Shown here piece after piece: positions 4,384 to 6,082 of a stretch of DNA of 64,000 nt. Below the pieces are notes generated by a model. It did no database searches. It saw only the letters and a list, made by a program, of their open reading frames with translations, and had not been told where the DNA came from. This DNA is from Pelosinus sp. UFO1 (GTDB taxonomy: Bacteria > Bacillota > Negativicutes > DSM-13327): assembly GCF_000725345.1 (NCBI RefSeq), contig NZ_CP008852.1, positions 3,712,001 through 3,776,000 of the forward strand, read 5' to 3'. The position numbers were made by a program, and so were the translations under genes. Numbering within the stretch: the first letter of the stretch is position 1; every line of letters begins with the position of its first letter.

Positions 4384-4664
4384 ATGAAATAAATAATCAG
4401 TTACAAAAAAATTGGTGGGCTAGCTTCCCGATTATTATTTCAGACACTCGATTTATCCTTTATGAAGGATTGGTATCTGCTTATCTCGTATTTCTACCAT
4501 TGGCATATCTGTTGGCTGTAAAATTAGGCTACGGGGTGTACGGAGGTTATTTTGCCTTTTTATTATGGTGCATTACGGATTGCACAGCGCTTACCATTAG
4601 GTTTTATCTACAAAAAGGCTGGCGACAAAATCCACCACATACTAAAAGGAAAAATGCAACTTAA
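4384..4664 (+). pseudogene. Internally deleted MATE efflux transporter remnant
   Basis: AGGAGG at 4371 precedes ATG AAA TAA at 4384, a dead start. One base out of frame, an open frame continues with INNQLQKNWWASFPIII, which looks like a MATE N-terminus. It then runs straight into SDTRFILYEGLVSAYLVF and on to the C-terminal helices (GYGVYGGYFAF, RFYLQKGW) typical of the last MATE segment. About 340 middle residues are missing. This suggests one internal deletion plus a frameshift close to the start. The downstream piece from the TTG at 4470 (64 aa) is too short to transport anything. Confidence 0.7.
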
Positions 4665-4703
4665 TAGAAGTTCTAGCCACTATAACCAAAGCTTTTTTAG
4701 AAC

Positions 4704-4797
4704 TACTCCATGTATCTGATAACATGGAGTATGTTATAATAATGATTGAATATGCAGTTTGCGTGGAACAATAGTCTTTCGATTGTAGACTGCATAT
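4704..4797 (+). promoter_or_regulatory. Two stem-loops at the head of the rsgA leader
   Basis: TACTCCATGT (4704-4713) pairs perfectly with ACATGGAGTA (4722-4731). ATATGCAGT (4750-4758) pairs with ACTGCATAT (4789-4797), and an inner stem pairs 4768-4772 with 4782-4786. A TATAAT lies at 4735-4740, but no convincing -35 is seen, so the first palindrome could instead be an operator overlapping the promoter. Part of the long regulatory leader of the rsgA gene. Confidence 0.5.
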
Positions 4798-4820
4798 GAT
4801 TGACGAAAGGAGTTGTTATT

Positions 4821-4877
4821 ATGTTTAACAATAATATAGCGGGGATTGTAACAAGATGGGAGGTGCGTACAAAATAA
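4821..4877 (+). CDS. 18-aa leader peptide upstream of rsgA
   Basis: ATG at 4821 follows AAAGGAG with good spacing and encodes MFNNNIAGIVTRWEVRTK, then TAA. The ORF is placed so that codons 13-15 contain GGGAGGT, the first arm of the downstream attenuator (4858-4864). A strong ribosome site, short length and overlap with a switchable hairpin are typical of regulatory leader peptides. No homologue is recalled. Confidence 0.6.
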   Translation: MFNNNIAGIVTRWEVRTK

Positions 4878-4925
4878 TTTAGTGTATAGACCTCCCAAAA
4901 GCTTATGTTACAAAACTTTTGGAGG
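4858..4925 (+). promoter_or_regulatory. Mutually exclusive hairpins masking the rsgA ribosome site
   Basis: Arm 1 (GGGAGGT, 4858-4864) can pair with arm 2 (ACCTCCC, 4890-4896). Arm 2 extended (4891-4901) can instead pair with arm 3 (CTTTTGGAGG, 4916-4925), with one bulged C. Arm 3 contains the rsgA ribosome site. The two pairings cannot coexist, so rsgA translation should depend on whether a ribosome occupies arm 1 in the leader ORF. Confidence 0.7.
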
Positions 4926-4933
4926 ATATAAAA

Positions 4934-6022
4934 ATGAGTAAAATAGATATGAGTAATTTAGGATTCAGCCAAAGATTTATTACCGAGTCAACATTATATG
5001 ACAATCTCTATGTGGGTCGTATAATTTCCCAATACAAAGACTTATACAAGGTTGTAACAGGAAGTGGTGAGGTAACTGCTTCTATTTCCGGGAAGTTTCG
5101 TTTTGCTGTCAAAACCTCATCGGATTACCCTGCAGTTGGTGACTTCGCTATGCTCGACCGAAATGACGACATCGGCGGAAATGCAATTATTCACCACATT
5201 CTGACAAGAAAAAGCGCTTTTATTAGAAAGGCTGCGGGGACATCAAATGAGGAACAGGTGGTAGCATCAAATATTGATACGGTTTTTATCTGTATGTCGC
5301 TTAATAATGATTTTAATCTCCGTAGGTTAGAACGCTATCTTGGTGTTGCCTGGGACAGTCGAGCAATTCCGGTTATCGTCCTTACTAAGGCTGACTTATG
5401 TGATAATCTCCCTGAAAAGTTGGTAAAACTTGATGCTGTTGCCTGTGGTGTTGATGTGCTTGTTACTTCTAGTATGAATCAAGATGGATTCTTATCTGTC
5501 AATAATTATATTGGAAGCGGCAAAACTATTGCATTTATCGGCTCATCTGGTGTTGGGAAATCAACCTTGATCAATAAGCTCATGGGCAAAAACGCCCTTG
5601 AAACTCAAGAAATAAGAAATGATGATAAAGGCAGGCATACTACTACCAGACGGGAACTCATTATTCTTCCAAGCGGCGGCGTCGTTATTGATACCCCGGG
5701 GATGAGAGAACTTGGGGTTGAAAGTGCTGACCTATCAAAAACTTTTTCCGATATAGATGACCTTTCAACAGAGTGTAAATTTCATGATTGCACTCATACG
5801 AATGAGCCCAATTGTGCGGTACAAAAGGCCATAAACGATGGCTTATTATCTAATGAGCGGCTCGCAAATTATGTAAAGCTAAAAAAAGAGGCTAAGTATG
5901 AGGGCTTAAATTCTAAGCAGATTGAAGCTGAAAAGATTTCCACCATGTTCGCTGAAACAGGCGGAATGAAAAATGCACGAAAGTTTATCAAAGAGAAAAA
6001 CAACAAAAGACGGGGTTTTTAA
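4934..6022 (+). CDS. rsgA: RsgA-type ribosome small-subunit GTPase
   Basis: The circularly permuted GTPase order is clear: G4 (VLTKADLCD) comes before G1 (GSSGVGKSTLINKL) and G3 (DTPGMRELG), then the zinc-binding CKFHDCTHTNEPNC. An OB-like N-terminal domain precedes them. RsgA checks late 30S maturation and is released on GTP hydrolysis. This copy, with the N-terminus MSKIDMSNLGFSQRF and about 362 residues, resembles the accessory long type often found as a second paralogue. The ATG at 4934 follows GGAGG at 4921. Its attenuator leader is unusual for a housekeeping GTPase and suggests induction under ribosome stress. Confidence 0.9.
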   Translation: MSKIDMSNLGFSQRFITESTLYDNLYVGRIISQYKDLYKVVTGSGEVTASISGKFRFAVKTSSDYPAVGDFAMLDRNDDIGGNAIIHHILTRKSAFIRKAAGTSNEEQVVASNIDTVFICMSLNNDFNLRRLERYLGVAWDSRAIPVIVLTKADLCDNLPEKLVKLDAVACGVDVLVTSSMNQDGFLSVNNYIGSGKTIAFIGSSGVGKSTLINKLMGKNALETQEIRNDDKGRHTTTRRELIILPSGGVVIDTPGMRELGVESADLSKTFSDIDDLSTECKFHDCTHTNEPNCAVQKAINDGLLSNERLANYVKLKKEAKYEGLNSKQIEAEKISTMFAETGGMKNARKFIKEKNNKRRGF

Positions 6023-6042: not shown

Positions 6043-6082
6043 ACAAACTCCTGCAAGGCTAGGCCGCTTTGCAGGAGTTTGT
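6043..6082 (+). repeat. Hairpin repeat, copy 2
   Basis: ACAAACTCCTGCAA and TTTGCAGGAGTTTGT flank GGCTAGGCCGC. It lies between the convergent rsgA and porin genes, 20 bp past rsgA and 30 bp past the porin stop, and probably terminates both. Confidence 0.9.

Follow-up and report, generated by a model that had tools for sequence, protein, structure and literature searches.

The accessory rsgA gene of Pelosinus sp. UFO1 is preceded by a real and conserved translational attenuator, built from a short upstream open reading frame (uORF) and RNA stems that exclude one another, which is part of a wider family of leaders and whose switching has been computed only. The leader and its gene lie in a 64,000-nucleotide stretch of the genome that was analysed at its full length (the window; positions are counted from its first nucleotide). 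Taken as a whole, we regard a uORF-controlled translational attenuator of this rsgA as the best explanation of the data and as probably correct: the uORF, the exclusive stems, their conservation and an in-silico switch are observed, and switching in vivo, the inducer and the role of the protein are inferred. The attenuator is apparently undescribed so far; a sequence-only reading of the same DNA had suspected as much, and we found no published description of an rsgA leader in the open-access literature searched or in Rfam.

The regulated gene (4934–6022, + strand, with its ATG at 4934) encodes a long-type RsgA GTPase of 362 amino acids (RsgA2), recognised by TIGR00157 (160.9 bits against a cut-off of 100), by PF03193 (176.6 against 30) and by its likeness to solved RsgA homologues. 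Its sequence carries the circularly permuted G motifs TKAD, GSSGVGKST, HTTT and DTPG and a C-terminal zinc cluster, CKFHDCTHTNEPNC, features read from the sequence and supported by alignment to 1T9H. By profile and motifs RsgA2 is a member of the RsgA family, and a GTPase activity stimulated by the 30S subunit is inferred only. A second, canonical RsgA of 292 amino acids is encoded elsewhere in the 5.1-Mb genome (C1:2532960-2533811), so that the gene at 4934–6022 is an accessory copy, as had been supposed from the letters alone; Pelosinus propionicus is among the relatives of this genome, and of 31 relatives compared almost all carry the canonical form and some the long type. An intrinsic terminator with a 17-pair stem follows rsgA2 (6043–6082, + strand), and from its sequence context the gene looks monocistronic. 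Upstream of the rsgA promoter, at 4384–4664, lies the remnant of a membrane-protein gene with an early stop and a 64-residue open tail.

The presumed promoter of the leader–rsgA transcript is an extended -10 element, TGTTATAAT (4732–4740, + strand), inferred by reading in the absence of data on the transcription start, and the same element is similarly placed in the relatives L005 and L087. Directly 5' of it stands a perfect 10-bp palindrome, TACTCCATGT-N8-ACATGGAGTA (4704–4731), which these two relatives do not share and which is a possible operator. The minimum free energy (MFE) fold places a 5' hairpin, ATATGCAG...CTGCATAT (4750–4797, + strand), ahead of the uORF; it recurs only in the same two close relatives and is therefore not core to the switch. 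The uORF itself (4821–4877, + strand; ATG at 4821–4823, stop codon TAA at 4875–4877) consists of 18 sense codons encoding MFNNNIAGIVTRWEVRTK, is supported by reading and by comparison with orthologues, and has its own Shine-Dalgarno (SD) sequence, AAAGGAG (4806–4812, + strand), conserved as GAAAGGAG in A1. Codons 8–10, at which the switch turns, read GGG ATT GTA (Gly-Ile-Val) in the window; most relatives have Glu-Ile-Val.

Three arms on the + strand make up the core of the leader. Arm 1 (4857–4871), the anti-masking strand, comprises TGGGAGGT (4857–4864) and GTACA (4867–4871), and its core (4858–4864) lies inside uORF codons. Arm 2 (4883–4897), formed by TGTAT (4883–4887) and ACCTCCCA (4890–4897) with its core at 4890–4896, is the strand common to both structures and has arm 1 and arm 3 as alternative partners, and arm 3, CTTTTGGAGG (4916–4925), holds the rsgA SD, GGAGG (4921–4925). 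Direct reading upholds the proposal of the sequence-only reading that an 18-codon uORF with a ribosome site encloses arm 1, and reading, folding and the swap tests described below agree with its claim that arm 2 pairs either with arm 1 or with the arm that carries the rsgA SD. Absent from it were the extension of stem 1:2, in which GTACA pairs with TGTAT, the extension of stem 2:3, in which CAAAAG pairs with CTTTTG, and a further pairing, S3, between TTGTAACA (4846–4853, + strand, within uORF codons 9–11) and TGTTACAA (4906–4913, + strand, in the loop between arms 2 and 3), the latter pairing being worth -10.5 kcal/mol in the window.

The leader of the window folds more stably than chance (z = -4.94), and stem 1:2 is present in its MFE structure. 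No intrinsic terminator was found on the + strand within 4600–4933, the sequence after stem 2:3 being ATATAAAAATG, and transcription attenuation of the hflXr or vmlR type can be ruled out because the leader has no terminator with a U-tract. No Rfam family reached its gathering score anywhere in the window; a match to ctRNA_pT181 on the minus strand at 4654–4751 (34.3 bits against a gathering score of 56, E 0.0036) is sub-threshold and was taken as chance.

Conservation was assessed in an orthologue set of 80 loci from genome contigs together with further loci from relatives, using a covariance model (R1) built on 54 leaders. A leader with uORF and arms precedes 73 of 105 orthologues at E <= 0.01, mainly in Bacillota and Synergistota; this count includes the leaders on which the model was trained and the E-values are rough, and 19 of the 73 lay outside the training set. 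It would have spoken against the attenuator had orthologous leaders lacked the uORF or the three-arm complementarity, and this did not occur: most have the uORF as well as the arms, and the arms co-vary. Distant orthologues keep the order of SD, uORF, GGGAGGT inside the uORF, ACCTCCC and rsgA SD; their uORFs mostly have 15–21 codons, with the consensus MfnnntxEIVtnxEVcaK before the stop, and ACCTCCC usually lies 6–16 nt past the uORF stop. The leader is also found in Cetobacterium (Fusobacteriota) and in plasmid copies of Peptoclostridium, and its losses are clustered, mainly in one clade of Trichococcus and relatives with about 18 leader-less orthologues. The gene tree mixes phyla, with Synergistaceae grouped with Pelosinus and Virgibacillus nested in a Terrisporobacter-type clade, both of the latter having a shortened uORF of 15 codons, and from this phylogenetic pattern rsgA2 and its leader seem to travel together horizontally. 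At one locus (L127) the leader is kept before an apparent degraded remnant of rsgA, with about 30 residues of the start followed by stops.

Within the uORF, the start codon, the SD and in-frame changes of length are conserved, and codons 2–7 are little conserved, with Asn frequent among the early ones. In the codon table of the long leaders, Ile at the switch is encoded by ATT in 45 of 45 cases and Glu by GAG in 32 of 33, and the Ile position is taken by Ser in 6/54 leaders and by Leu elsewhere. Conservation of the peptide only is excluded by this table, which shows a constraint at the RNA level too.

The arms themselves co-vary across orthologues, so far as alignment and permutation can establish it. 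When halves were swapped between loci for stem 1:2 beyond the arms, for stem 2:3 beyond the arms and for S3, cognate halves beat swapped ones in every case, with none of 2000 permutations as good in each. S3 joins uORF codons 8–11 to the arm 2–3 loop across loci, as with TTGTAGT:ACTACAA in L012. In a MAFFT alignment, 83.5% of cells are paired in the structure combining 1:2 with S3 and 83.5% in structure 2:3, these counts exceeding those of shuffles and slid controls; in the former structure 34 cells changed on both sides, compared with 14.4 +/- 7.0 after shuffling (1 of 500 as high). The SD-like core pairs hardly vary and are little informative, and the counts for S3 are lower bounds, since S3 is missing in some loci and was misplaced by the alignment in the window.

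To model a ribosome at a given codon of the uORF, the nucleotides from -13 to +14, counted from the first base of the codon in the P site, were kept unpaired; the fold energies are model estimates, and co-transcriptional kinetics were ignored. Over 54 loci the rsgA SD is predicted to be open when the RNA is bare or a ribosome stands at codons 1–8 and shut from codon 10 to the stop: mean openness is 0.60 bare, 0.62–0.65 with the ribosome at codons 1–7, and 0.05–0.16 throughout the final nine codons of the uORF, with about 0.4 at the codon just before them. In the window the corresponding values are 0.53 bare, 0.9 at codons 1–6 and 0.0–0.2 from codon 10 on, and the amplitude of the switch, 0.76, was not reached in any of 150 shuffles of the stretch from uORF stop to SD (0.08 +/- 0.15). 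Shuffling likewise abolished the switch in L030, L021 and L009 (0/150 each); bare openness falls below 0.4 in 15 of the 54 loci, and switching is not clean in L078 and L062. In silico only, then, a completed leader masks the rsgA SD and an early stop exposes it, and the logic first put forward from sequence, that a finished leader hides the gene and an early or absent ribosome opens it, finds support in the window and in most of the 54 orthologues. A long-type rsgA of Listeria monocytogenes, about 44% identical and adjoining pnp and rpsO, has a uORF (L218:2870-3010, MAIVKMENLIINTGVFYL before the stop) that is unrelated to that of the window and shows a similar SD switch in silico; no papers were found on lmo1332, which we presume to be the Listeria locus tag.

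The switch stands before rsgA2 orthologues, and it is not specific to rsgA, since related leaders precede genes for GNAT, RNHCP, methyltransferase and HTH proteins. A search of 398 Bacillota genomes with R1 gave matches in 30, and 19 of the loci examined precede RsgA2. GNAT acetyltransferases (PF00583/PF13527) follow the leader at L123, L128, L136 and L139 and, among loci found later, at L163, L164 and L176; RNHCP-domain zinc proteins (PF12647) follow it at L130, L131 and L135 and, later, at L206, in the Acetobacterium genome of L082. Weaker relatives were found before a methyltransferase in Anaerovirgula (L213, uORF MFKHIKNESV) and, as diverged ESV-type leaders, before a small HTH protein of about 91 amino acids (L165, L166, L167); at L109, which has no leader, an HTH coding sequence of the latter type lies directly upstream of rsgA2. 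Matches at L138, L140 and L141 (E 0.002–0.008) sit at ordinary gene starts and were put down to chance.

Leaders of the GNAT and RNHCP genes are of a short type, in which the uORF (for instance MKKNYKMEIVY, MTKYFQEEIVR or MKNNNISEIVD) stops right after Glu-Ile-Val-x and ahead of arm 1, arm 1 lies in a different frame from the uORF, and the Glu-Ile-Val codons are able to pair with a strand 3' of arm 1. Masked folding predicts that in most of these loci the SD is shut when the RNA is bare or a ribosome is at codon 1, that only a ribosome near codons 6–9 frees it, with the maximum at Glu8, and that it shuts again at the end; none of 100 shuffles was as strong in the four loci tested (L123, L128, L130 and L163), and switching is weak in L135, L164 and L176. 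A ribosome with Glu8, or a neighbour of it, in the P site is the one state on which the two designs agree. Ser at the second motif position is encoded by TCT, TCG or AGT, which favours some selection on the amino acid, and the invariant ATT for Ile points to selection on the RNA; both may act.

Several observations concern the proteins and replicons of these relatives. In five Bacillota genomes RsgA carries an RNHCP domain as a C-terminal fusion (L226–L230; confirmed with Pfam for L226), and our literature search found no work on the function of RNHCP. GNAT relatives of about 560 amino acids are fused to an APH-type kinase, as confirmed with Pfam for L250 and judged by length and sequence for L252, L257, L258 and L260, a layout reminiscent of bifunctional aminoglycoside-modifying enzymes. 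In three phage contigs (L219:4139-4863, L220:6047-6771 and, on the minus strand, L221) a GNAT gene with its short-type leader lies beside tail tape-measure-like genes, placed like a cargo gene; the long-type pattern was not found in viral contigs, a blastn search of plasmids with a GNAT leader gave no match, and neither did the models when applied to the regions ahead of more distant GNATs and of the RsgA–RNHCP fusions.

The mechanism that we propose would work as follows. With no ribosome past codon 8, arm 1 would pair with arm 2 and leave the rsgA SD free; a ribosome anywhere from codon 10 to the stop would cover arm 1, so that arm 2 would pair with the SD and mask rsgA. Efficient translation of the leader would keep RsgA2 low, and failed initiation or a stall within the first 8–9 codons would turn it on, whereupon RsgA2 would help 30S subunits to cope. 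The likeliest inducer would be an antibiotic that halts ribosomes at initiation or early elongation, or at Glu-Ile/Ser-Val with Glu in the P site, where the leading edge of the ribosome would end just short of arm 1. The Glu codon lies 16 nt from arm 1 in 43 of 54 long leaders and, by reading, 17 nt in L130, and 16–17 nt is about the distance from the P site to the leading edge. From this spacing, and from Glu8 being the only point on which the two designs agree, we infer from the modelling that Glu-Ile/Ser-Val is the stall site; the almost fixed choice of ATT and GAG is a constraint on the RNA, so peptide-dependent arrest is not proven, and codon 8 of the window itself is Gly, not Glu. Induction by drugs or starvation is likewise an inference, made without expression, probing or profiling data. 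Going further, one may tentatively picture a mobile family of leaders that share a new Glu-Ile/Ser-Val arrest site, a single drug-sensing switch in default-on and default-off wirings whose cargo comprises accessory RsgA, RNHCP, GNATs (with APH-fused relatives) and a methyltransferase, and in which RsgA2, together with RNHCP, is a protection or rescue factor against 30S inhibitors; we consider this possible, with well under half of our confidence behind it.

The leader might also be a sensor of its own initiation rate, or of 30S supply, without any drug-specific stall: scarce 30S subunits would leave the uORF empty, the open default would prevail, and RsgA2 would mature 30S subunits in a feedback on assembly. 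That the rsgA2 type is open both as bare RNA and with a ribosome on its first codon fits this, as does the slight conservation of codons 2–7, whereas the default-off GNAT and RNHCP leaders need a ribosome at codons 6–9, which a lack of initiation cannot supply, and scarcity of 30S would cut initiation on rsgA2 as well; on balance we think it rather unlikely, though worth keeping in mind. Much harder to sustain is an amino-acid starvation attenuator reading charged tRNA at Asn, Ile or Val codons: Ile-Val (or Leu/Ala) codons do lie at the switch point and Asn is frequent early on, but Ile gives way to Ser in 6/54 leaders and to Leu in others, the uORFs lack codon runs, and none of the genes that follow the leaders is biosynthetic.

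Codon-level conservation of the uORF RNA could instead reflect direct binding of the leader by RsgA2 itself (autoregulation) or by a ligand, the uORF being incidental, and the GTAACAA...ACCTCC of the leader, which we take to resemble the 3' end of 16S rRNA, might be counted in its favour. However, GTAACAA varies along with its pairing partner (GTAGT/ACTAC in L012), which rules out mimicry of 16S rRNA, genes for proteins that are not related to RsgA carry this leader too, and the uORF has kept its start codon and SD and varies in length in frame, so that direct binding is very improbable. Least credible of all, and close to dismissed, is an RNA thermometer in which heat melts the SD hairpin 2:3; its sole support, a match to ROSE_3 (18.5 bits, E 0.15), falls below the gathering score of 43 and was taken as chance, and a thermometer leaves the conserved uORF and the competing stem 1:2 unexplained.

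Among known systems, the attenuator described here meets the defining features of the erm/cat type: a short uORF with its own SD before the regulated gene, mutually exclusive stems of which one masks the downstream SD, and, in silico only, access to the SD flipped by the position of a ribosome on the uORF. The ermC leader is shut without a ribosome. The erm-like logic first attributed to rsgA therefore holds for the uORF, the exclusive arms and the positional switch, but not for the four-arm, default-off subtype of ermC: the rsgA2 leader has three arms, is open when bare (0.53 in the window, mean 0.60 over 54 loci) and, in comparison with ermCL–ermC, keeps arm 1 inside the translated uORF, carries a ribosome-assembly GTPase as cargo, has no drug shown to act on it and has in E-I/S-V no known arrest motif. 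Most short-type GNAT and RNHCP leaders do meet the default-off subtype.

The nearest precedent is Listeria hflXr/rli80, a uORF-based attenuator on a copy of a ribosomal GTPase that relies on an RLR peptide and on a terminator of transcription (PMC6310831), and a uORFC-6-1 motif is known upstream of hflX (PMC8632094). Both resemble rsgA2 in placing an accessory ribosome-associated GTPase under a uORF attenuator, whereas the target in rsgA2 is the SD, without terminator or RLR motif, and RsgA belongs to another GTPase family and acts on 30S. In E. coli toiL–topAI, too, access to the SD depends on a uORF, which responds to several drugs that target the ribosome, among them tetracycline and retapamulin, which cause stalling at the uORF start codon (PMC12121999). 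The proposal for toiL is that a stall at any position frees the SD, whereas in the rsgA2 leader only one before about codon 9 would do so, and sequence, structure and cargo all differ; by our modelling, a start-codon stall would open the rsgA2 leader and not the short type. A link to translation stress is known for other rsgA genes: the accessory RsgA/EngC SCO6149 of Streptomyces is among the paralogues activated by WblC under tetracycline (PMC7157823), and in Anabaena TrcR represses the rsgA gene alr8077 along with other translation genes, a repression that translation stress relieves (PMC10272220). The link is similar, but control there is by transcription factors and here by an RNA leader.

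An attenuator of this kind before a second RsgA, and before RNHCP, which is fused to RsgA elsewhere, points to an uncharacterised role of accessory RsgA in ribosome stress or drug tolerance, which would concern Bacillota, Synergistota and Fusobacteriota. Attenuators with a uORF often flag ribosome-protecting genes, hflXr among them. The occurrence of two wirings on related leaders makes the stall codon predictable ahead of experiment, and conservation across many bacteria and several genes suggests a response to blocked ribosomes that has not been described.
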